DNA of 64,000 nt from Erwinia endophytica (GTDB taxonomy: Bacteria; Pseudomonadota; Gammaproteobacteria; Enterobacterales; Enterobacteriaceae), in assembly GCF_009295515.1 (NCBI RefSeq), contig NZ_RQVV01000032.1, forward strand, positions 62,001 to 126,000, read 5' to 3'. This document shows positions 10,131 through 44,734 of this stretch, piece by piece. Position 1 is the first letter of the stretch; every line of letters starts with the position of its first letter. A model generated the notes under the pieces. It had not been told where the DNA came from, did no database searches, and saw nothing but the letters and a program-made list of their open reading frames with translations. Made by a program: the position numbers and the translations under genes.

Positions 10131-11098
10131 TTGTTAAAACCTCCTCAATGGGCGACGTACTCCATACTCTGCCAGCCCTGACTGATGCCATGCGCGCTAT
10201 CCCAGGGATCCGTTTTGACTGGATCGTGGAGGAAGGTTTTGCACAAATCCCCACCTGGCATCCGGCGGTAGACCGGGTGATCCCGGTAGCGATCCGACGC
10301 TGGCGTAAACATTGGTTTGGCAGTGCAGCACGTGAAGAACGCTTTCTGTTCAAGCGTGAGGTTCAGTCACGCCAGTACGATCTGGTGATTGATGCGCAGG
10401 GACTGATTAAAAGCGCCGCACTGGTCACCCGTATCGCCAAAGGTATCAAGCACGGCCAGGACAGTCGCAGCGCTCGCGAACCATTTGCCAGTTGGTGGTA
10501 TGACAGACGTCATGCAATCAATAAGCAGCAGCATGCTGTACAGCGTACACGGGAACTGTTTGCCAAAAGTCTTAACTATCCCTTGCCGACCAGCCTGGGT
10601 GACTATGCCATCGCAGGGCATTTCCTGGCGAACCCTCCTGTCGATGCCGTTCAGTATCTGGTGTTTTTACATGCCACCACCCGTGATGCGAAACACTGGC
10701 CAGAGAATAACTGGCGCGAGCTGATCGGTTTGCTGCAAGCCAGCGGGCTGAAGATCAAACTGCCCTGGGGCACGGAGCACGAACAGCAGCGGGCCAGGAG
10801 ACTGGCGGAAGGATTTAACTATGTAGAAGTACTGCCCAAACTGACACTGGAACAGGTCGCCCAGATTTTAGCCGGCGCAAAAGCTGTGGTATCCGTCGAT
10901 ACAGGACTCAGCCATTTAACCGCAGCACTGGATCGCCCCAATATCACGCTGTATGGTCCAACCGATCCGGGATTGATTGGCGGTTATGGTAAAAATCAGT
11001 TCGTCCTGCGCCCCACTCAGAGCCAAAATATGGCAGATATCTCTGCACAACGTGTGGCAGAACATCTCCATCCTCTTATCGCACCCATGGCTGATTAA
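10118..11098 (+). CDS. waaC: ADP-heptose:LPS heptosyltransferase I (WaaC)
   Basis: GT9 enzyme that attaches the first heptose to Kdo2-lipid A. The 326 residues begin MQVLIVKTSSMGDVLHTLPA, the classic WaaC start. FDWIVEEGFAQIP, VIDAQGLIKSA and FLHATTRDAKHWP are family blocks. The donor site block is AVVSVDTGLSHLTAALDRP, then LYGPTDPGLIGGYG. It follows waaF with overlap; a GT2 gene starts 6 bp after its stop, so transcription probably continues into it. Confidence 0.96.
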   Translation: MQVLIVKTSSMGDVLHTLPALTDAMRAIPGIRFDWIVEEGFAQIPTWHPAVDRVIPVAIRRWRKHWFGSAAREERFLFKREVQSRQYDLVIDAQGLIKSAALVTRIAKGIKHGQDSRSAREPFASWWYDRRHAINKQQHAVQRTRELFAKSLNYPLPTSLGDYAIAGHFLANPPVDAVQYLVFLHATTRDAKHWPENNWRELIGLLQASGLKIKLPWGTEHEQQRARRLAEGFNYVEVLPKLTLEQVAQILAGAKAVVSVDTGLSHLTAALDRPNITLYGPTDPGLIGGYGKNQFVLRPTQSQNMADISAQRVAEHLHPLIAPMAD

Positions 11099-11104
11099 AC
11101 GCAG

Positions 11105-12022
11105 ATGACCCCCCCTATCCTGAGCATTCTGATTGCCGCACACAATTGTGGCGATTTTCTCGCCAAAACGCTCGACAGTATCATCGCCTCACTGGGCAAG
11201 GCGCTGGTGCGGACCGAAATTGTGGTGGTCAACGATGCCTCGACAGACGCCACCCAGACCATCATTGATGATTACGCGTTGCGCCTGCCGCAGCTTCGTC
11301 ATAGCTATGTCGATTACCGTAACGTCGGTAAAGTCCGTAATCATGCGGTTAAACTGGCATGCGGCGACTATATTCTGATGGTCGATGGCGACGATCAACT
11401 ACTTCCTGGCGCCCTGCAGGATCGACTGCAAACACTGCAAAAATATACGCCGGATATTCTGCTCAGTCAGATTATCGAAGTGCGGCATGACGTTCCGGCG
11501 TTGCAATGGCAGCCCTCCGACCCTGAATTACTGCCCCGGGACGAGGCTATTGAGCGTTTCCTGATACATCGGGATTATCAGGCGCATTTTATCGGGCAGT
11601 TCTTTTCACGGCAGTTACTGCAACAACATGCTTTCCCGGATTTTATCTGTTACGAAGACACCTGGCTGTTTCCGCTACTGCTGATGCTCAGTGAGAAAAC
11701 GCTGTTTACCCGCAGTGGTTTTTATCTATACCGTAAGCATGGGCACAGCCTGTCGACAGCCATTGATGAACGCAAGATTACCTGTCTGATTGCCGCGACA
11801 CAGAACATGGATGAGGTGTTGCCGGCACAATTTGAGCACCTGATTACCTGCCATTGGCTGGATATCGCCAACCGGTACCATCCTTTGCTCAGCGGCACGT
11901 CACAAGGTCATCAGGTGAACTCGCGTATCGCCCGGGTCAGCCTGGTCCGGTTTCTGCTGAACAGAAAAATCAGGACCAGTTATAAGAGAAAAATGCTGGC
12001 GGTACGGAAACGCAACCGATAA
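11105..12022 (+). CDS. GT2-family glycosyltransferase, LPS core
   Basis: Family 2 (GT-A) transferase of 305 residues. The start is ILIAAHNCGDFLAKTLDSI, followed by VVVNDASTDATQTI and the metal-binding DGDDQLLPGAL (DxD). A catalytic-region CYEDTWLFP lies near residue 180. The basic C-terminus is rich in Arg and Lys, often seen in membrane-surface core transferases. The gap to waaC is 6 bp. In Klebsiella a ligase gene sits here, so the locus differs. Acceptor and donor are not deducible; an outer-core role is inferred from position. Confidence 0.8.
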   Translation: MTPPILSILIAAHNCGDFLAKTLDSIIASLGKALVRTEIVVVNDASTDATQTIIDDYALRLPQLRHSYVDYRNVGKVRNHAVKLACGDYILMVDGDDQLLPGALQDRLQTLQKYTPDILLSQIIEVRHDVPALQWQPSDPELLPRDEAIERFLIHRDYQAHFIGQFFSRQLLQQHAFPDFICYEDTWLFPLLLMLSEKTLFTRSGFYLYRKHGHSLSTAIDERKITCLIAATQNMDEVLPAQFEHLITCHWLDIANRYHPLLSGTSQGHQVNSRIARVSLVRFLLNRKIRTSYKRKMLAVRKRNR

Positions 12023-33310: not shown

Positions 33311-33354
33311 ATTGGTATACTGTCGCATATGATTGCATTACATCGCACAAATAC

Positions 33355-33407
33355 GTTGTACCCAAGGTTGTACCCAATACCATTTTTACAGATCACTCTG
33401 GGTACAA
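33355..33407. repeat. Integrase arm-type repeats, left end of island
   Basis: A tandem pair GTTGTACCCAAG/GTTGTACCCAAT occupies 33355-33378, and an inverted TGGGTACAA lies at 33399-33407, just before the integrase start. The same words occur before the degenerate integrase at 44290-44330 and once more at 44064-44086. They are the expected form of integrase arm-binding sites in P4-type islands; the assignment is by position and recurrence. Confidence 0.65.
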
Positions 33408-33434
33408 AGTTCTATTCAATGTTTAGGTGACTCT

Positions 33435-34694
33435 ATGGCAAAACTGACAGACGTACAGATAAAGGCATGGATTAAGGCCGGAGAACGGTTTGAGGGGCGC
33501 TCAGACGGTCATGGGCTTTATCTGCGTTACCGGGCAGGGGATAAAGTCCCTGTGTGGCGCTTCCGGTATCAGTACGCTGGAAAGTCGCGGGTTATGCTGA
33601 TTGGCTCTTATGGCGAAATGTCATTAGCCAAAGCAAGAGAGACAGCGAAAGAGCTTTCCGCTCGTGTTGCCTTGGGCTTTGACGTGGCCGGAGAGAAGCA
33701 GGAACGTAAAGCAGACGCACTGGAGAAGATGGAGCAGGAAAAAAATGCTCTTCGTGTGGCTGAATTAGCGACCGAGTATTTCGAACGCCAGATTATGGGG
33801 CGATGGAAACACCCGGATATTCTGCGCCGCCGCATCGACAAGGACATAAACCCCAACATAGGCCACCTCAAGGTAGAGGACGTCCGTCCCCGACACATCG
33901 ACGATATGCTGCAAAAGATCGTCGCTCGTGGTGCGCCAACCATTGCAAATGACGTACTGCGCTGGACTCGCCGTATCTTTGACTACGGTATCAAACGACA
34001 TATGCTGGAGATTAACCCCACCGGTGCTTTTGAAGTTGCCGATGCTGGCGGGCAGGAGAAAAGCAGGGAGCGCTGGTTAACCCGCGAGGAACTTATCCAG
34101 TTTTTCCAGGCTATGCGCATGGCTAAAGGGTTCAGCCGTGAGAACGAACTCACAATGAAGCTGATACTCTGCCTGTGTTGCCGTAAAATGGAGCTGTGCG
34201 GCGCTCCATGGGCTGAATTCGACTTAGACGGGGCACTATGGCACCTACCCGCTGAACGCGCTAAGAACGGCGATGCTATCGATATTCCGCTACCACCACC
34301 AGCGGTTGAATGGCTCAGAGAATTACACAGCTTTTCCGGCAACAGTAAATGGGTACTCCCTGCCCGGAAAATGCAGCACCGTATGATCCCCCATATCCAG
34401 GAAAGTACCCTGCCGGTAGCTCTGGCAAAAGTACGCCGTGAAATGCCAGGCGTACCCAACTTCACTATTCATGACTTCCGACGCACTGGTCGCACCCATT
34501 TAGCGGCGTTGGGGGTGGATCCCATTGTTGCCGAGCGCTGCCTGAATCACCGTATCAAGGGCGTGGAAGGTATCTATAACCGCCACCAGTATTTTGATGA
34601 ACGCCGGGCAGCGTTGATGTTGTGGGCTGAACTGCTGGTAGCGCTGGAACATGGAGAAGATTACAACGTGGTATCGATAGCAAACAGGAAGTAA
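33435..34694 (+). CDS. P4-type tyrosine recombinase (island integrase)
   Basis: Site-specific recombinase of 419 residues. The start MAKLTDVQIKAWIKAGERFE (ATG 33435) is the usual one; the frame is open 102 bp upstream through the arm repeats. The DUF4102 N-terminal arm-binding domain has GLYLRYRAGDK and GSYGEMSLAKARETA. The catalytic domain shows Arg in CLCCRKMELCGAPW, His-x-x-Arg in IHDFRRTGRTHLAALG, the second His in CLNHRIKGVEGIYNRHQY and the Tyr nucleophile in that block. Insertion is beside the yicC terminator rather than at a tRNA. The gene looks intact. Confidence 0.93.
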   Translation: MAKLTDVQIKAWIKAGERFEGRSDGHGLYLRYRAGDKVPVWRFRYQYAGKSRVMLIGSYGEMSLAKARETAKELSARVALGFDVAGEKQERKADALEKMEQEKNALRVAELATEYFERQIMGRWKHPDILRRRIDKDINPNIGHLKVEDVRPRHIDDMLQKIVARGAPTIANDVLRWTRRIFDYGIKRHMLEINPTGAFEVADAGGQEKSRERWLTREELIQFFQAMRMAKGFSRENELTMKLILCLCCRKMELCGAPWAEFDLDGALWHLPAERAKNGDAIDIPLPPPAVEWLRELHSFSGNSKWVLPARKMQHRMIPHIQESTLPVALAKVRREMPGVPNFTIHDFRRTGRTHLAALGVDPIVAERCLNHRIKGVEGIYNRHQYFDERRAALMLWAELLVALEHGEDYNVVSIANRK

Positions 34695-35102: not shown

Positions 35103-35643
35103 GAGGGCGCCGAAACTCGACTAAGGTTCCATTTTGCTGATCATTATTATGCTCTTCGCGACGCTCAGACAGCATCGATTTTAAACGAACCAAATGCACC
35201 ACCGCAGCTTTTTTGCTGGTAAGATACCCTTCGGGTAAACCGACTAACATTTCAACATCGATAGCGGACAGCCCCGCAAAATTCGATAAACCATCAACTG
35301 CAATGATCCCGGAAGATGCGAGAAGTTCGACAGTACGTTTAAGCAAGCGCGGCTTTTCCGGTTCTCGATAATCATCACCTGGTTCAGATTTAACCCCCCA
35401 GCGAGCCGAACGGCGTTTATAGAGATTCTGTTTCTCTTCATCTGAAATGATATTTAAGGCATGCAGACGCATTATGCTGGCCGCAACTGATATACCATAG
35501 CGTTGTTTAGTCAGAAGAAGGCTATCGAGGGTAACGGGTGTTTTCACTTCCTGGGGTCTGAAGGCCAATGGAACGAAAACGTACGTTAGTGAAGTAAATG
35601 TATGATATGTAATAACATAATAGATACAGATAAAAGCCCGCAA
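35083..35643 (-). pseudogene. 3' remnant of an ImmA/IrrE-type metallopeptidase/XRE regulator gene
   Basis: The readable part, from about 35570 down, includes PVTLDSLLLTKQRYGISVAA, SIMRLHALNIISDEEKQNLY, RRSARWGVKSEPGDDYREPE and KPRLLKRTVELLASSGI. This is the C-terminal domain of DUF955 (ImmA/IrrE) proteins, which sense stress or phage and cleave a repressor, or act as antitoxins. The HEXXH zinc-site half and any helix-turn-helix are missing. The first ~20 codons of the open frame are AT-rich and do not fit the family. An IS1111-group element begins about 90 bp further upstream, so truncation by insertion or deletion is likely. Confidence 0.65.
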
Positions 35644-35729: not shown

Positions 35730-36900
35730 GAATGGAAGGGTCTTCCCCTGATCATGCGCCTGATTAACTCTTGTGCAATCATGGGGTAAACACAGCCCCG
35801 GAGGGATTCGTTATGACCATCACTACTGTCGATATCGATCTTGCTAAAAATGTGTTCGCTGTTCACTGCGTTGACCAGAATGGAAAAACTGTTCTGGTAA
35901 AACCCAGGGTATCGCGTGCAGCACTACCCGAGCTGATTGCTGGCTTGCCACCCTGTGTTATCGGGATGGAGACATGTTCGGGCGCTCATTACTGGGCAAG
36001 AATGTTTCGGCAATATGGCCATGAGCCGCGTCTGATGGCAGCAAAGTTCGTATCCCCTTACCGCATGGCAGGTAAATCAGGGAAAAATGATGCCGCTGAT
36101 GCTCAGGCCATCTGCGAAGCAGTTCGTCGCCCGCATATGCGATTCGTGCCAGTAAAAGATGAAGGCCAGCAGGCGATGCAGTGCCTGCACCGCACTCGTC
36201 AGGGATTTATCGAAGAGAAAACAACAACGTATAATCGCCTGCGAGGGTTGATATCTGAATTCGGCGTCATCGCGCCACAAAGTACTGACGGCCTGCGCCA
36301 CATGGTTTCAGCGCAAAAGGATTCTTTACCGCTTCAGGTTCAGCAATGTGTTGATGATTTGCTGGAACACGTTGATCACATTGAAGCTAAGATTGCTGAA
36401 TATGACCGAATTTTGTCCCGCATGGCCAAAACAGATCACCGCAGTCAGCGGTTGATGGAGCTGAAAGGAGTTGGCCCCACAACGGCCTGTGCGCTGGTCG
36501 CCAGTATCGGTAATGCACATGATTTTAAGAATGGACGTCAACTGGCTGCCTGGCTGGGACTGACGCCATCACAATACAGCAGCGGTGGAAAGTCGAAACT
36601 CGGCAGGATCACAAAAGCCGGTGATTCGTATCTGCGAACGCTTCTGGTACAGGGAGCCCGTTCAGCACTGATTGGTGCAGAGAAAAAGAGCGACTCATTC
36701 AGTCGCTGGGCCTGCTCGCTGGTCGAGCGAAGAGGATACTGGCGTGCGGTTGTGGCTATCGCCGCCAAAAATGCAAGACTGTGCTGGGCATCGCTACACT
36801 ATGGTGATGATTTCAGCCTGTACTCAGCTGACTGAAGCACAAATCTGTATAACCATATGACCTGCAACTCGTTGATGATAAAGGGTTAGACCCCGTGAGG
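35730..36900 (+). mobile_element. IS110-family element, IS1111 group (approximate ends)
   Basis: The transposase gene is flanked by subterminal inverted repeats: AGGGTCTTCCCCTGATCAT at 35737-35755, and on the other strand GGGGTCTAACCCTTTATCAT (36894-36875). The two share GGTCT--CCC--T--TCAT. Subterminal inverted repeats are typical of the IS1111 group and absent from the IS110 group proper. Exact ends were not resolvable because these elements make no target duplication. The non-coding flanks should include the guide (seek/bridge) RNA; none was folded here. Confidence 0.7.
35813..36835 (+). CDS. IS110/IS1111-group transposase
   Basis: DEDD transposase of 340 residues from ATG 35813 (MTITTVDIDLAKNVFAVHCV), preceded by CCGGAGG. 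Catalytic acids appear in VDIDLAKNVF, GMETCSGAHYWAR and GKNDAADAQAICEA. The C-terminal Transposase_20 domain has LKGVGPTTACALVASIG, AAWLGLTPSQYSSGGK and the conserved Ser. Closest group by motifs: IS1328/IS1111-like. It appears intact. An open extension to 35771 upstream is not supported by a ribosome site. Confidence 0.9.
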   Translation: MTITTVDIDLAKNVFAVHCVDQNGKTVLVKPRVSRAALPELIAGLPPCVIGMETCSGAHYWARMFRQYGHEPRLMAAKFVSPYRMAGKSGKNDAADAQAICEAVRRPHMRFVPVKDEGQQAMQCLHRTRQGFIEEKTTTYNRLRGLISEFGVIAPQSTDGLRHMVSAQKDSLPLQVQQCVDDLLEHVDHIEAKIAEYDRILSRMAKTDHRSQRLMELKGVGPTTACALVASIGNAHDFKNGRQLAAWLGLTPSQYSSGGKSKLGRITKAGDSYLRTLLVQGARSALIGAEKKSDSFSRWACSLVERRGYWRAVVAIAAKNARLCWASLHYGDDFSLYSAD

Positions 36901-37231
36901 ATTATCTGCAAAACGTACAGGATATACGTATCCGCTTAGCGAACAAGAATCTCACGAGCGTCTTTCATCAGGGTCCGAATCGATGACGATTCATCATGGC
37001 CGTTTATAGTACCGCAGTCTCTCCCCTTTATTTTTACTGATGAGCTGACAGAAACCATAAAAACCGACGTTGACACGCCGGGGAAGCCCTTATAGTACGT
37101 TTTCGTACGGTTGGACCTCAAACCCCTATTCCGGTAACTATCAACTTGAGTCCACCCCGGAAAGACACGACAAATCGCCAGTGGCGGTAGCCATTGGTAA
37201 GCAGGATGTGCGAGAGATGTATCAAGAGTTC

Positions 37232-37261
37232 TTGAAGTGGTGCCATAACTGCGGCTACACT
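37232..37261 (+). promoter_or_regulatory. RNAI promoter of the ColE1-like origin
   Basis: TTGAAG (37232-37237) and TACACT (37256-37261), spacer 18 bp. Both hexamers and spacing are the same as in the pMB1 RNAI promoter. Confidence 0.8.
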
Positions 37262-37267
37262 GAAAGG

Positions 37268-37368
37268 ACAGATTTGGTGACATGTCTCGCACAAGACTGT
37301 TACCACGGTTAGATGATCTGCCAGGATTAACTAACCTTCGAAAAAGCCACCTGCCAGGGTGGTTTTTT
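37268..37368 (+). ncRNA. RNAI-like antisense copy-number RNA
   Basis: Expected transcript of about 100 nt (pMB1 RNAI is 108) starting ACAGATTTGG. Three stem-loops can be drawn: GGTGACATGTCT-CGCACA-AGACTGTTACC, then GGTTAG ... CTAACC around TGCCAG, then a terminator GCCACC-TGCCA-GGGTGG with T6 (37346-37368). In ColE1 plasmids RNAI pairs with the RNAII primer and blocks replication. The loops differ from pMB1, as expected for a different incompatibility type, while stem pairing is kept. This argues it was functional until recently. Confidence 0.75.
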
Positions 37369-37438
37369 CGTTTACAGGGCAAGAGATTACGCGCAGAGAA
37401 AAAGGATCTCAAGAAGATCCTTTTTGAAGTGGATACGA

Positions 37439-37831
37439 TTAACGATAAAGCAGCCCTGTATTTGGGCTCCAGTCGATCCATAGACGGGGATGCTTTTCGA
37501 TACATTGAGCCTCTACGGGCATTTTATCAAAGCACAGCAGATCCGAATCTTCATCCGTTCCTCTGTCGATACGATATCCCTCACCAAAGTCCATAATTAC
37601 AACGCCATAACTGCCATCAGTGTATTTATGAGGAATCCCATATTTAGCCTGGATCATGTCCTTATTGGCTTCCCACCAGGCTATCTGACGGCTTTTCAGG
37701 TAAGGGAAATGCTTAACCAAAATCGTATTTCCATCGTGAACGGCTACAATCTCAACCGGCGTCAGGTACTGCCAGAGCAGATAACCACCGATCGCAGCCG
37801 CCACAACACCCGCAATCAGTCGCTTACTCAC
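37439..37831 (-). CDS. DUF943 family protein, candidate immunity protein
   Basis: The 130-residue product has one N-terminal membrane helix (LIAGVVAAAIGGYLLWQYL) and DUF943 blocks: VEIVAVHDGNTILVKHFPYL, IAWWEANKDMIQAKYGIP, GVVIMDFGEGYRID and LCFDKM ... CIEK. DUF943 genes in enterobacteria commonly lie beside DUF3289/PAAR effector genes. Here it overlaps the PAAR gene by 8 bp and follows it, so the pair is co-translated. The inference is that this is the inner-membrane, periplasm-facing immunity partner. Direct proof is lacking. Confidence 0.7.
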   Translation of the reverse strand: MSKRLIAGVVAAAIGGYLLWQYLTPVEIVAVHDGNTILVKHFPYLKSRQIAWWEANKDMIQAKYGIPHKYTDGSYGVVIMDFGEGYRIDRGTDEDSDLLCFDKMPVEAQCIEKHPRLWIDWSPNTGLLYR

Positions 37832-39077
37832 CCCGCCTCCCGCTGATTTCTACAGTGGCATTCATCTCGGTGATAAACGGTCTGTAGCCGTATTCATCCC
37901 AGCGCTGAAGCGTGAACCACAGCCGAAAGATACGAAATTCCCGGTATAGCGGGTTAAGTACATCATCATCATCGAGGCCAAAGTGATCCTGAATACGGTA
38001 ATGCACCTTCGCCCGGTAGCTGTCGCTGTTCACCTCCAGCGACGCCAGCGTGATATGCGTCGACCAGGTATCATGGACGGTAATCACCAGCCCGTTAGTA
38101 CGATCAACCAGGCTGTCAAACTTGGGGAGAACAGTCCGGTTTAAGTCCTTAAAGTTCCCCTTCTCGTCGAACAATTCACTCTTTTTATTCAAAGGAATGA
38201 AGCCATAATCATAGTTAATAGACTTATCCAAAACGGTTTTAATCCGCAACAACGAGCTTTGTTCTGAACGGTCATTCAGGATCTGCTCTTTCAGCGCCCT
38301 GTCCAGAAGCGGGCTGCTGTATGGCGTACCAGTGTTCTCCTGCATGTGGTCAATCATCTCGGTGATGATGTTTTTATACGGGCCGAGGAAGGAGTACAGC
38401 TTCGCCAGCTCCCGGAACTCATCAAACATCAGCCCTGCGCTTTCCTGCTTACTCACCCTCCTGACAGGTTCATCCGGCAGCATGGCCCGCTCATAAGGGG
38501 ACAAAAATGGATAAGGGTTAAGCGGCTCCTTTGCTGTTAGGGTGTACGGATTAACCTTTGTTGAGACATTATCAACATCGATACGGAAACGGTTCCTGAG
38601 CGTCAGGATATCCAGATCGCCGTGATGCATGTCCTTGGCCTGATAGTCATCCATCCGGTTCTTTGTCTGATAAATCAGGGCTGGAATGGGCATGGGTTCA
38701 AGCCCTTTCTCTTTCGCGTCAGCCAGTTTCTTCTTGCGGGCAGTCTCCTCCCGCTCTGCCACCCTGCCGGCATTACAGGTACTTTCGTACGTGTCCGTCT
38801 CGACTACGGGAATGAACCGGGCGCGACACGGGCAGGAGCTGTAGCTGTCCAGCGAACCCGCCCACTCTTTCAGCTCTCCACCGACCTCGTAAGTGTCACC
38901 CATGCCACCACAGACACGGAACCGCCCTTCATGCTTACCGCAGGTCACCGGATCGCCTGCCCTGACCTTTTGCCGCTCGATGCCGCCGATTTCGTAGGTA
39001 TCATCGGATGCGCCAGCAAGAATGCGTCCACCACAGGTAGTTTTGTCCAGGTGATACAGAAAAAATCCCTTCGCCAT
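37824..39077 (-). CDS. PAAR-domain protein with C-terminal DUF3289 region, candidate T6SS effector
   Basis: The 417-residue product starts MAKGFFLYHLDKTTCGGRIL. Its first ~100 residues form a PAAR-like domain (AGDPVTCGKHEGRFRVCGGM, GASDDTYEIGG), which tips the VgrG spike. A linker with charged residues follows (about 115-145). The C-terminal part contains NPYPFLSPYERAMLP, FDEFRELAKLYSFLGPYKNI and FRIFRLWFTLQRWDEYGYRP then FITEMNATVEISG, the DUF3289 region. No vgrG, hcp or other secretion-system gene is in the window, so it is an orphan cargo effector relying on a system elsewhere. The toxic activity of DUF3289 is not known to me. Confidence 0.7.
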   Translation of the reverse strand: MAKGFFLYHLDKTTCGGRILAGASDDTYEIGGIERQKVRAGDPVTCGKHEGRFRVCGGMGDTYEVGGELKEWAGSLDSYSSCPCRARFIPVVETDTYESTCNAGRVAEREETARKKKLADAKEKGLEPMPIPALIYQTKNRMDDYQAKDMHHGDLDILTLRNRFRIDVDNVSTKVNPYTLTAKEPLNPYPFLSPYERAMLPDEPVRRVSKQESAGLMFDEFRELAKLYSFLGPYKNIITEMIDHMQENTGTPYSSPLLDRALKEQILNDRSEQSSLLRIKTVLDKSINYDYGFIPLNKKSELFDEKGNFKDLNRTVLPKFDSLVDRTNGLVITVHDTWSTHITLASLEVNSDSYRAKVHYRIQDHFGLDDDDVLNPLYREFRIFRLWFTLQRWDEYGYRPFITEMNATVEISGRRGE

Positions 39078-40712: not shown

Positions 40713-43616
40713 TTGGGCGTACCACTTGAGGAAGCTCAGGTTTATGAAAATCATCCGGCGATGGTCAACATGCCTGATGGCGAATATGCCGCTAACAGAC
40801 GTACCCGGCGCATGTTGCGGAAAAAAAACGGTATTGATGCAAAAAGACTGCGCGATCTGGAGGGGCAAAAAATGAGTGGATTTAATTACCTGATGGAGCA
40901 GGGGCAAAAACGCACCCCTGCCCGGTTTACTGCTAACGTCTTTTCTGGCCTTTGCAACGCCATCTTAGCGCACCGTGTAGATATTTCCATCACACCAGAA
41001 ATGACAAAAGCAGAGCGCCGGAAAGAGAAAGAAAAACTATGGTGGTTCTCGCCACCGACAAAAGAAGCCGGGCAGCGGCGTATTGTGTCAAATATGGCGG
41101 CGTGTGCGTTTGGCGGAGCTGATATTGACGACAGCACCCCCGGTGCAATCCAGATGCTGATATCTGTGTTAAAACACTATTCCATGCTGGTGTACCAAAC
41201 AGCAAGCCATACCGCAGAAAAGCCACGCCTGCGCATCGTGCCGGAGTTTTCCCGACTGGTGGAACCGGAAGAACGCCGGACAACTGGCGAGGCTGTAGAA
41301 ACGTTACTGATGCAGAAAGCTGGCTTTACGGTTGCCAGCATTGACGGCGATACATCCCGATGGGTACGCGGCGGCGATTACATTGTTTTTGATCGCAGTG
41401 TGTACAGTGCACAAAGTTATCACTATTGCCCTGACATAAAGGCCGAAGTATCCACGTTTGATGGTGAGGTAATCAACGTTGACACGCTCCTCCTGCCCGT
41501 AACAACGCCGGAAGCTAAAAAGCCCACCAGCACCAACAAAGGGAAGAAAAACGCTCAGGAGGCCGTAGCGGTCGATTCCGATCCATTCCCGGCGATGCCG
41601 GACGAGTTCACTGTATGCGATTTGCGTAGTGCGCTCAGTTTTCCCAAATGGCAGAACCCAAGCGACGATTACGAAACATGGGTAGCTAACGGTATTCGCC
41701 TAGCCTCGCTGAAAAGCACTGAATACGAGGACGATGCAAAAGCGTTATGGCTGGAATATAGCGCCCGTTCTCCGGCATACAGGGAAGATTACACCGAAGA
41801 AAAATGGGAGAGTTTCACTGCTGATCGTTCCAGCTACAGAGGTATTTTTGCAGATTCGCAGGCTATGGGCTGGGAGAATGAAGCGACCAAACGCGCTGCT
41901 GCCCGTCTGCAACCACGGATAGAGGCCAGAACCAACGGCCTTTACCATATCACGCCAAAAGTTAACAAGCAGACCGGAGAGATCGAAGAACCCGCCGTGT
42001 GGATGTGTTCTCCCCTTGATGTAATCGGACGTGGTACAGATAGATCCGAAGAATACCTGATCCTTTCGTGGACGTGTAACGGGCGCAAAGTGACAGAAGC
42101 GCTCCCGCTCTGTGACATTGGCGAACGCGATGGCTGGCGGCGAATGAAAGCTGGTGGGCTAAACGTGACGACAAAAACCAGTATCCGGGCAGTGCTGGGG
42201 GATTATCTGCAACTGCACGGCAATTCGACCCGCTGGAATGTGGCAAAAACCACAGGCTGGCAGTATGGCGCGTACATCATGCCCGATAGCGAGATCATCG
42301 GCGCACCATCCCAGCCCGTTATTTTTTGCGGTCACTCCGCAACAGCACAGGGCTACACAGTGAAAGGCACCCCGGAAAGCTGGCGCGATAACGTAGCACG
42401 GCTGATAGCCGGTAATCCATCAATGGTAACAGCAATCGCGGCAGCGTTCGCCGCTCCCATGCTGACGCTGGTGGGTGCTGACGGTTTCGGCATTCACTTT
42501 TATGAGCAATCCAGCGCAGGTAAGACGACTACGGCCAACGCCGCCGCCAGTCTTTACGGATCGCCGGATAAAACAAAACTCACCTGGTACGGAACAGCGT
42601 TAGGCATGGTCAACGAGGCAGCGGCGCACAATGACGGGTTTATGTCACTGGATGAAATCAGCCAGAGTACCCGCCGCCGTGATGTAGCAGAGTCGGCGTA
42701 TGCGCTGTTTAACGGCGTAGGTAAGTTACAGGGGCGCAGGGATGGCGGTAACCGGGATATATTACGTTTCACCACTGTAGTCCTCAGCACTGGCGAAACG
42801 GACTTAGAGAGTTTTATCCGTGAGGACGGTGGCAGTGTCAACGCCGGGCAACTGGTACGCCTGCTGAATATTCCGCTGACAAGAGCCACCAGCTACCACA
42901 CCCTGCCCGATGGTAAGGCACACGCTGACGCACTGAAAACAGCCTACCAGAGTCACTACGGGACAGCAGGTCGTAAATGGGTAAGTATGTTGGCTGAAAG
43001 TCCAAAAATGGTACAGGAGGCTGTAGCGGCGGCAAAACAACGGTGGAAAGCGCTAATTCCTGCACAGGCAAGCGAACAGGCCGGGCGCGTTGCGGATTGT
43101 TTCGCCATTCTGGAAGCGGCGCTTATGCTATCCCTTCAGTTGACAGGGTGGGCGGCTACAGATTGCCAGGCAGCGGTAGAGCATACATTTAAAAACTGGT
43201 TAGGCATTTACGGCACCGCAAATCGTGAACGGGTTCAACTGGTAGAGATGGTAGAAAACTTCCTGCTGGTGAACGAAAACCGTTTTGATTTGGCCTGTGA
43301 ATCGGACGCTTATCCGTGGACGACAGACAAAAATAGACGTGCTGGATGGCTGGTGCCAAATAGTTCGCCGGATGGTCGAAACGTCTATTACGTCCTGCCC
43401 AGCATACTCAAAACAGAGGTAATACCGGGTAAAGAACCGCTAAACGCTGTAAAAATAATGCATGAGGAAGGTGTTTTATGGAAAAAGGATAAGCGCTCTT
43501 TCCAATCCTTAACGCCCCGAATTAACGGCCACCAGTACCGAACTTATGCGCTAATGCTGGTTCCGATTGTAGATGAAGAGGAAGCAGAAACCCAGCCAGA
43601 AACGGACAAAATTTAA
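40713..43616 (+). CDS. DUF927-type primase/helicase of a P4-like satellite
   Basis: A 967-residue replication protein. The N-terminal part carries an acidic block FGGADIDDSTPGA (near residue 134) and PRLRIVPEFSR, in keeping with a primase-like region. The C-terminal DUF927 helicase domain has Walker A SSAGKTTTANAA (about 600) and Walker B GFMSLDEIS (about 641), then RDILRFTTVVLSTGETDLES. Such proteins combine primase and helicase activity for the element's own replication, as P4 alpha does. A strong terminator follows. The TTG start at 40713 is provisional because of the possible frameshift just upstream. Confidence 0.78.
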   Translation: MGVPLEEAQVYENHPAMVNMPDGEYAANRRTRRMLRKKNGIDAKRLRDLEGQKMSGFNYLMEQGQKRTPARFTANVFSGLCNAILAHRVDISITPEMTKAERRKEKEKLWWFSPPTKEAGQRRIVSNMAACAFGGADIDDSTPGAIQMLISVLKHYSMLVYQTASHTAEKPRLRIVPEFSRLVEPEERRTTGEAVETLLMQKAGFTVASIDGDTSRWVRGGDYIVFDRSVYSAQSYHYCPDIKAEVSTFDGEVINVDTLLLPVTTPEAKKPTSTNKGKKNAQEAVAVDSDPFPAMPDEFTVCDLRSALSFPKWQNPSDDYETWVANGIRLASLKSTEYEDDAKALWLEYSARSPAYREDYTEEKWESFTADRSSYRGIFADSQAMGWENEATKRAAARLQPRIEARTNGLYHITPKVNKQTGEIEEPAVWMCSPLDVIGRGTDRSEEYLILSWTCNGRKVTEALPLCDIGERDGWRRMKAGGLNVTTKTSIRAVLGDYLQLHGNSTRWNVAKTTGWQYGAYIMPDSEIIGAPSQPVIFCGHSATAQGYTVKGTPESWRDNVARLIAGNPSMVTAIAAAFAAPMLTLVGADGFGIHFYEQSSAGKTTTANAAASLYGSPDKTKLTWYGTALGMVNEAAAHNDGFMSLDEISQSTRRRDVAESAYALFNGVGKLQGRRDGGNRDILRFTTVVLSTGETDLESFIREDGGSVNAGQLVRLLNIPLTRATSYHTLPDGKAHADALKTAYQSHYGTAGRKWVSMLAESPKMVQEAVAAAKQRWKALIPAQASEQAGRVADCFAILEAALMLSLQLTGWAATDCQAAVEHTFKNWLGIYGTANRERVQLVEMVENFLLVNENRFDLACESDAYPWTTDKNRRAGWLVPNSSPDGRNVYYVLPSILKTEVIPGKEPLNAVKIMHEEGVLWKKDKRSFQSLTPRINGHQYRTYALMLVPIVDEEEAETQPETDKI

Positions 43617-43655: not shown

Positions 43656-44202
43656 ATGAAACATGTGATTTTTTACAACATATCACGCCTATTACCCTGT
43701 CAAAAAAATAGAATATTTCTCTGTGAAACAGCTTAATCAAATTGCGTTTCAGCTATATGTTTTGATGAGAACCAGGCGTACCAAGGCTTAGAGGGGTACC
43801 GAGACAGCGAAACAACTGAAACAGCGTTTTCGAGCCTACATGTATAATAGAGTTTTTAGTTTTAGTGGTGTGTAGACCTGCATAAGGCATCCAAATAGAG
43901 AACCGTAAACCCCCATTCGTGATCGCGTTTTGCCGTATCAAAATGTTGAGAAATGTTGAGGTGCATAAAACACATAGCAAAACGTAGACCGTCGATGATT
44001 GAATTATCCCCCACCCGGTTCCTTACCATTCAGCCAGTATAATTTTTGAGCACTTCGTTTTTCGTTGTACCCAAGGGTGTACCCAAACGAAAAACGCATT
44101 ATCAACAAACCAGTAAATAAAAGGATTTAACGCATTTACTCAATGAGCAGATTCAATCGAGTGAATAATCAATAAGATTCACCCACTATCAAAAACCTAC
44201 GC

Positions 44203-44357: not shown

Positions 44358-44734
44358 ATGCCAAGCAGATCCGGGCATGGATAAAGGCAGGAGAGCGATT
44401 TGAAGGGCGCTCAGACGGCAACGGACTTTATCTCTCCTACCGGAAAAACTATCAGATGCCGGTCTGACGCTTCAGGTATAAATTTGCTGGAAAGTCACGA
44501 GTAATGATGATCGGTTCCTATGCCGAGTTATCGTTAGCCGAAGCTCTGGAGAACATGGAGCAGGAAAAGCACGCGCTTCGAGTACCAGCACTTGCCGCCG
44601 AACACTTTGAGCGCCAAATTTCAGGGCGCTGGAAGCATCTCGATATTCTGCGCCGCCGCATCGACAAGGACATAAATCCGTCTATCGGTCACATGAAGGT
44701 AGAGGACGTGAAACTCCGCCCCATTGACGTGTAG
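44358..44734 (+). pseudogene. Degenerate second P4-type integrase
   Basis: Starts ATGCCAAGCAGATCC and then aligns with the intact integrase: IRAWIKAGERFEGRSDGNGL, RFRYKFAGKSRVMMIGSYAE and HFERQISGRWKHLDILRRRI then DKDINPSIGHMKVEDV. Defects: an early deletion shifts frame after the start, a TGA replaces the Trp codon of the VWRFRY block (about 44466), an internal deletion removes about 30 residues after SLAEA, and a stop ends it at 44734 before the whole catalytic domain. The transposase remnant follows immediately, so the 3' half was probably lost with that insertion. Confidence 0.85.

Follow-up and report, generated by a model that had tools for sequence, protein, structure and literature searches.

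Colicin plasmids of the ColE1 group are small replicons that carry toxin and immunity genes beside an RNAI/RNAII origin. How orphan T6SS effectors spread between bacteria is, to our knowledge, poorly known. A 64,000-nucleotide stretch of Erwinia endophytica DNA (contig NZ_RQVV01000032.1, positions 62,001 to 126,000; hereafter the window) holds a locus that resembles these plasmids in having toxin and immunity genes beside an RNAI/RNAII origin, the toxin family, DUF3289, being a colicin M homologue according to the accessible text of PMC11148199. It differs from them in that the toxins are T6SS effectors and not released colicins, and in that the window keeps half an origin, in the chromosome. 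The same two families, DUF3289 and DUF943, form the orphan T6SS cassettes T6EC1/T6IC1 (PMC11148199), and the WHxxxH motif of the WHIX effectors (PMC12135965) is common to several other effectors found here beside origin scars and on plasmids; however, the accessible parts of both papers make no mention of a plasmid origin behind the immunity gene. T6SS genes on plasmids have been described (PMC9113992), but the accessible text deals with T6SS clusters on plasmids mostly of >100 kb, and the words ColE1 and small plasmid are absent from it. TIME and TIME-COMP elements (PMC13367494 and PMC4133298, in their accessible parts) share Tn3-type repeats with our loci, in which ~250-bp elements lie at the cut edge of several origins, but the cargo described in the accessible part of PMC13367494 is antibiotic resistance genes, whereas here it would be effector cassettes, with no target duplication seen. 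Chromosomal nuclease bacteriocins are noted in the accessible part of PMC5536347, as are plasmid transfer genes together with a bacteriocin built into a Klebsiella genome. Among the papers listed by our searches of the open-access journal literature, none describes T6SS effectors carried by ColE1-type plasmids, nor scars of this kind, including the accessible parts of PMC13185608, PMC12469244, PMC6234761, PMC12135965, PMC11148199, PMC10763514, PMC13367494, PMC9113992 and PMC5536347.

Half an origin behind an effector–immunity pair

The core of the locus consists of the following features.

37125..37428, minus strand: ColE1-type origin, RNAI-side half only (nhmmer, profile positions 11-315 of 769, E 8e-82)
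37269..37371, plus strand: RNAI, antisense regulator of ColE1-type replication, with three stem-loops (Rfam RF00106, 76.6 bits, E 2.7e-12)
37232..37261, plus strand: RNAI promoter TTGAAG-18-TACACT, -35 at 37232-37237 and -10 at 37256-37261 (read from the sequence)
37384..37412, minus strand: RNAII promoter TTGAGA-17-TAATCT, -35 at 37412-37407 and -10 at 37389-37384 (read from the sequence)
37400..37425, strand not assigned: dyad AAAAGGATCT..AGATCCTTTTT directly behind the immunity stop codon (read from the sequence; present in the origin consensus)
37439..37831, minus strand: DUF943 immunity gene (Pfam PF06092, E 9.7e-35)
37824..39077, minus strand: DUF3289 effector with a putative PAAR-type start, of a colicin M-like T6SS toxin family (Pfam PF11692, E 3e-95)

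RNAI, for which the gathering score of RF00106 is 47, is the sole Rfam match at the gathering threshold in the window. The origin was delimited with a 769-position profile of 17 small-plasmid origins. A first-pass annotation had recognised a ColE1-type origin here, with both promoters and three RNAI stem-loops, and each of these elements is borne out: RNAI folds into three stem-loops (-47.9 kcal/mol), the promoter boxes are present with spacings of 18 and 17 bp, and positions 37129-37425 are 93.6% identical, among the matches listed, to 4.9-kb plasmids of E. coli and Salmonella. In alignment, the 5' stem-loop is identical to that of pEC27-6, and the remaining loops agree with those of pEC27-6 and p75, both living plasmids. 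A simple consensus scan listed no promoters at the origin, the boxes having been found by reading, and the dyad, possibly the terminator of the effector-immunity operon, was likewise not listed by a terminator scan.

The first-pass annotation had taken the RNAII body to be about 190 bp short, which underestimates the loss: homology stops at profile position 315, and everything beyond is missing, including the G-tract (335-340) and the TATGGAAAAAC stretch (594-604), which we take to be the RNase H start region. This 3' part of RNAII is required of a ColE1-type replicon. With the start region gone, the remnant should be dead as an origin, and its replication by DNA polymerase I is predicted to be negative; the earlier suggestion that the origin had been disarmed is supported by this truncation. 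An active chromosomal origin in the window was considered and is ruled out by the missing start region.

Only 10 bases separate the DUF943 stop codon from the start of the origin match, and the DUF943 gene overlaps the end of the DUF3289 gene, the two Pfam families lying adjacent as in T6EC1/T6IC1. The pair belongs to the same families as an experimentally tested T6SS toxin and immunity pair: in the accessible text of PMC11148199, which deals with another member, DUF3289 is reported to be toxic in the E. coli periplasm and to be neutralised by DUF943, the effector tested being a specialised PAAR protein of a T6SS operon, and the accessible part of PMC12469244 links the pair to the T6SS in Klebsiella. 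As for the PAAR-type start, Pfam gave no PAAR match in the window effector, but tblastn matched annotated PAAR domain proteins; over its first 116 aa, the window effector shares 87% identity with the N-terminus of an effector from a 5.5-kb ColRNAI plasmid. Delivery would presumably rely on a T6SS of the host itself; two TssB matches are present in the host genome.

Both genes and the origin half lie within an island whose P4-like character, proposed at first pass, is confirmed by an integrase, direct repeats and a P4-type primase.

33333..34694, plus strand: island integrase (tyrosine recombinase), adjoining yicC (Pfam; yicC named from E. coli matches)
40713..43616, plus strand: P4-like primase/helicase of the island (Pfam DUF927, PriCT_2)
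33354..33377, plus strand: left att-like direct repeat (96% copy at 44063-44086)
44063..44086, plus strand: right att-like direct repeat (pairs with 33354..33377)

The direct repeats comprise 24 bases and are 96% alike; their att role is putative. At the right end of the island, 44366-44729 is 74-75% identical to the island integrase gene and is probably a second integrase remnant.

The same gene order on free small plasmids

A 5,472-bp plasmid of K. quasipneumoniae (NZ_CP137441.1; ColRNAI, MOBP) carries mob genes, an effector with a PAAR start annotated as DUF2235 (Tle1-type), a DUF2931 gene and RNAI. Searches with this effector and with the effector on contig C9 of the E. endophytica genome, followed by selection by size, yielded further small plasmids, among them four of Enterobacter sp. 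JBIWA005, two of E. coli (6,678 and 6,683 bp) and one of E. albertii (5,353 bp). The order effector - immunity - origin holds in 11 of 12 small-plasmid records, all of which were chosen as matches to such effectors and some of which are close relatives (L128/L136, L130/L135 and L133/L137); in those 11, the gene that follows the effector reads towards the origin match, its stop codon lying anywhere from 10 bp inside the match to 39 bp short of it. The exception is pJBIWA005_6. Nine of the 12 records are also among the 17 profile members, so that their profile match is by construction. In full, the plasmids read effector - immunity - terminator/RNAII promoter - RNAI - origin, and several also have mob or rop genes. 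Among the matches listed, two plasmids (6,275 and 6,794 bp) have lipase-type effectors, and a 2,691-bp Erwinia plasmid has an unnamed effector.

We conclude that the segment is very probably a scar left by a small ColE1-type plasmid bearing a T6SS effector-immunity pair. The plasmid would have entered the chromosome, after which its origin would have been cut, here at a Tn3-family terminal repeat, with loss of the G-tract and the RNase H start region; the effector pair would have been kept as an orphan cassette inside the P4-like island, and RNAI would be a hitchhiker whose transcription is possible. Origin loss would have been favoured because a chromosomal origin that fires is harmful. Capture of a small ColE1-like plasmid carrying the effector, as the first-pass annotation had put it, is supported by the free plasmids of the same gene order and by a Mixta genome in which the window's effector, immunity gene and origin positions 8-353 recur in another chromosomal setting. 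Among six named relatives of the effector, the RNAI half stands beside the Mixta one only; one more, on the cut contig L125, is accompanied by part of the other half, and four have neither. We found no free plasmid with the window's own DUF3289/DUF943 pair, which counts against this reading. The window contains neither a second origin half nor a mob gene, so whole-plasmid integration is not seen at this locus, and that a plasmid integrated, as opposed to a cassette having moved by other means, is what we infer.

Truncated origins in related genomes

In complete small plasmids the profile match reaches positions 754-766, and on the small contigs L070, L110, L114 and L115 it stops earlier or is gapped. 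Where the contig is 20 kb or longer, the RNAI-joined stretch breaks off at ~149-583 except in two cases: L098, a 31-kb contig with a match to 643 beside a Rep3 gene and hence probably a plasmid, and G024:C2 (L070), where a small plasmid is repeated three times on a 25-kb contig and the match runs to 606 and then from 658 to 754. Among the 28 copies of our survey (below), none has an RNAI-joined stretch that reaches the start region.

In G251 (L081), positions 12-289 lie behind the immunity gene and 344-755, including the start region, in front of the effector, all within 3.8 kb, as expected of a circle opened inside its origin; L104 likewise has two separated origin pieces. In profile positions, the break between the halves falls near 289-344 in L081 and near 329-340 in L104. 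A common integration point in the origin was also considered and rejected: cut points on long contigs range from ~149 to 583, with no shared core visible by eye.

With DNA baits for both halves in 198 genomes (best three candidates per genome), the RNAI half was found in 27 and the other half in 18. Among the places listed, 22 for the RNAI half and 23 for the other half are within the first 15,000 bases of contigs, and 27 versus 5 are beyond.

Genes beside RNAI across the family

Within the genus, 11 of 37 genomes have RNAI above the cut-off; for the family the figure is 45 of 392. We surveyed 28 such copies, all on contigs no shorter than 20 kb, counting one seven-copy array once; since RNAI was the bait, its presence in these scars is by selection. 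Left out of the 28 were 26 over-cut-off places in the first 6.3 kb of contigs, contigs <20 kb (C11 and C9 of the E. endophytica genome, G012:C44 and small plasmids) and the three copies of one plasmid unit on G024:C2; sub-cut-off copies in G028, G017, G030, G321 and G405b and second copies in G225 and G251 were viewed and not counted. Pfam was run on the nearest one to three ORFs per locus.

The genes adjacent to RNAI are T6SS-named, T6SS-tested or closely tied to the T6SS at nine of the 28 loci, are other toxin-type or plasmid-shared pairs at eight, and are other genes or nothing known at 11. The first group has six loci with a T6SS-named or tested gene on the RNAII-promoter side: DUF3289/DUF943 in the window, Tle1-like in G025, VasX in G034, a VgrG3-like C-terminus with TsiV3 in G251, Tlde1 in G422b, a name we take to be T6SS-linked, and in G405a the end of an Hcp gene that reads away from RNAI. 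Three more are tied to the T6SS by partner or motif (DUF2931 on contig C27 of the E. endophytica genome, a pesticin-type gene with LprI and WHxxxH in G225, and GH19 with DUF4087 in G249). In the second group, five loci have lipases (G029 and G225 by Pfam; G081 by 92% identity over 266 aa), a pore-forming colicin (G412) or a sub-threshold GH19 match (G149), and three (G018, G108 and G189) share an unnamed pair whose larger proteins are 81-83% identical and which has an 85.5% match, among the matches listed, on the 2,691-bp Erwinia plasmid. In the third, a DNA methylase lies beside RNAI in G016 and an HNH gene that reads away in G259, and nine loci have no gene recognised by Pfam on the nearest ORFs (without a family match are L060:6778-7437, L062, L065:5420-5815, L083, L085, L088, L091, L094 and L096). 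The WHxxxH motif, taken from the WHIX effectors in the accessible part of PMC12135965, occurs in C9, G028, G225, both G251 effectors and five plasmid effectors (in L130 as WHGGVH).

A recurring unnamed pair (~234-252 aa and 143-149 aa) lies directly before the origin scar in L064, L086 and L108; matched on the 2.7-kb Erwinia plasmid, it is a candidate new toxin and immunity family.

The 37 genus genomes contain 159 PAAR matches, or ~4 per genome, and against this rough base rate, with an incomplete and unclean control, chance proximity at nine of 28 loci seems very unlikely. As that control, the 53 nearest ORFs on the cut side at 27 of the 28 loci (G108 has no ORF there and G031 one) include none that is T6SS-named among the 25 Pfam families listed of a total of 67. 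The cut side is not free of such genes by BLAST: L092:4212-5501 matches part of the window effector at 35% identity, L061:6660-7085 a DUF2931 protein at 33%, and L065:6597-7052 the G189 immunity-type ORF at 63.5%; two of the cut-side matches are units of the G034 array.

The E. endophytica genome itself has four RNAI copies, in the window and on C27, C11 and C9 (the last below the cut-off), and all four have a toxin- or immunity-type ORF 3' of RNAI, by Pfam, motif or weak Pfam match. On C11 (L009; 15,210 bp), the RNAI copy lies beside a GH19-like piece and an EF-hand piece, and the contig looks like part of a larger plasmid, with a replication-type gene recognised by eye. C9 (L011; 3,038 bp), edged by inverted copies of an IS-like end (by eye), contains an effector with the WHxxxH motif, an immunity-type ORF of 142 aa and a piece of RNAI truncated on the 5' side.

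Tandem units

Several genomes have more than one origin piece at a locus. In G225, two effector-immunity-origin units that differ from each other point the same way and are separated by transposase ORFs, the first with VgrG3-like pieces, an immunity-type ORF and an origin piece, and the second with a pesticin-type gene, LprI and an origin piece. In G034, a two-contig assembly, the chromosomal contig C1 (L058 6228-14500 and L059 1-6111) bears an array of seven RNAI units that spans 14.4 kb, the units ~2.3-2.7 kb apart, with one 883-aa VasX-type toxin, shorter toxin-like ORFs (the two compared being 76-93% identical to parts of that toxin) and diverged immunity-type ORFs. Two origin pieces lie within ~1.3 kb of each other in G018, G031, G249 and G251b.

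An origin scar may attract further plasmids, as these loci suggest without proving it; the scar would serve as a homology arm with which more ColE1-family effector plasmids recombine to build tandem arrays. The two different units of G225, the G034 array with its toxin and diverged immunity-type ORFs, and the four paired loci are all consistent with this, but we consider it rather unlikely: the G034 array is likely a local amplification because the same junction recurs in each unit, the pairs in G031 and G249 are in opposite orientation, unlike the product of simple repeated integration, and the crossovers are putative.

Tn3-family repeats at the cut edge

The cut end of the origin coincides with one end of a TIME-like element.

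37089..37126, minus strand: Tn3-family terminal repeat where the origin is cut (tip 37126; 38.0 bits with the TIR profile)
35553..35590, plus strand: Tn3-family terminal repeat that faces the first and closes the TIME-like element on its other side (tip 35553; 38.5 bits with the TIR profile)
35771..36835, plus strand: IS110/IS1111-group transposase inside the TIME-like element (Pfam Transposase_20, DEDD_Tnp_IS110); the IS1111 group name is presumed

The first-pass annotation had placed the origin between an IS1111-group element and a PAAR-effector gene. An IS110/IS1111-type transposase, a DUF3289 effector and a P4-like primase are indeed its neighbours, but the PAAR label is putative, coming from tblastn and not from Pfam, and the edge of the origin is the Tn3-family repeat, the IS lying inside the same element; the IS as origin edge was accordingly rejected. 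The element has inverted Tn3-family repeats at both ends, as a TIME does, with tips at 35553 and 37126 and the IS between them; its outer flanks (TTCCT versus TATTC) show no 5-bp target duplication. An RNAI copy (58.4 bits) also lies next to an IS110-family transposase, as in the window, at L027:8590-8691, on pECL_A of Enterobacter cloacae ATCC 13047 (a 199-kb plasmid).

By profile, a Tn3-family repeat marks the cut end at nine of 40 junctions, a count that includes the seven array copies (the nine being the window, L009, L010, L061, L065, L066, L068, L100 and L101, the last reversed and in a cut form); three others (L067, L097 and L121) are repeat-like by eye only. Tn3-type miniature elements of ~251-256 bp occur at L010:7267-7521, L012:77-331, L075:5632-5886, L065:6217-6467, L068:5748-6002, L100:5906-6161 and 11061-11316, and L108:2567-2819, none with a matching 5-bp target duplication; such elements may act as recombination seams.

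An alternative interpretation is that TIME or Tn3-family repeats carried effector, immunity gene and origin piece together, in the manner of a TIME-COMP and with no plasmid integration. The nine repeat-marked junctions would fit this, as would L061, L100 and L108, where repeats lie on both sides of the cassette, but we consider such a move unlikely because none of 16 facing repeat pairs has identical 5-bp outer flanks, the window cassette is flanked by a repeat on a single side, and free plasmids with the whole unit exist.

Retention of RNAI

The first-pass annotation had raised a chromosomal incompatibility device; in this reading, RNAI would be kept because it represses incoming ColE1-type plasmids with matching loops. 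Both promoters and all three stem-loops are intact, and the loops match those of pEC27-6 and p75 as described above, so that exclusion of plasmids of these types by the window RNAI is possible as judged from its sequence. We nevertheless regard retention for this role as improbable. The window origin is only ~6% diverged from living plasmids, and youth alone can explain its intactness; other scars (L011, L063, L065, L067, L077, L094, L097 and L102) end before the RNAI -35 box, at profile positions 147-195; and in the G034 array the -10 box TACACT is altered to TGCACC in six copies and TACACC in one. Moreover, 12 of 49 RNAI-half matches are confined to the initial 90 bases, beside the immunity gene; decay starting at the distal end, or a use for the terminator, agrees with this pattern no less well than selection for RNAI itself does.

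An assembly chimera of plasmid and chromosome is extremely improbable: the assembly is a draft of 61 contigs and other copies of these repeats lie near contig ends, but the junctions are inside a 147-kb contig, longer matches elsewhere in the genome are only 78-90% identical, and the same design recurs in Mixta and elsewhere, including assemblies that consist of one or two contigs (G251, G034 and G149).

Significance

The same gene order on free plasmids with whole origins and beside cut origins in related genomes suggests that such plasmids carry toxin/antidote pairs between bacteria and leave scars. More broadly, and tentatively, ColE1-type plasmids might be a general vehicle for T6SS effector-immunity pairs in Enterobacteriaceae, integrating, losing their replication start and leaving effector-immunity-RNAI scars that would serve as landing sites where more effector plasmids gather into orphan arrays. 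One practical consequence would be that plasmid-typing tools may report ColRNAI replicons in strains that have scars only. RNAI beside a small ORF also offers a search tag for pairs missed by protein-family searches, such as that of G018, G189 and G108. If the plasmid-scar reading is true, small effector plasmids and their chromosomal scars would provide a concrete route for the spread of orphan T6SS effectors.
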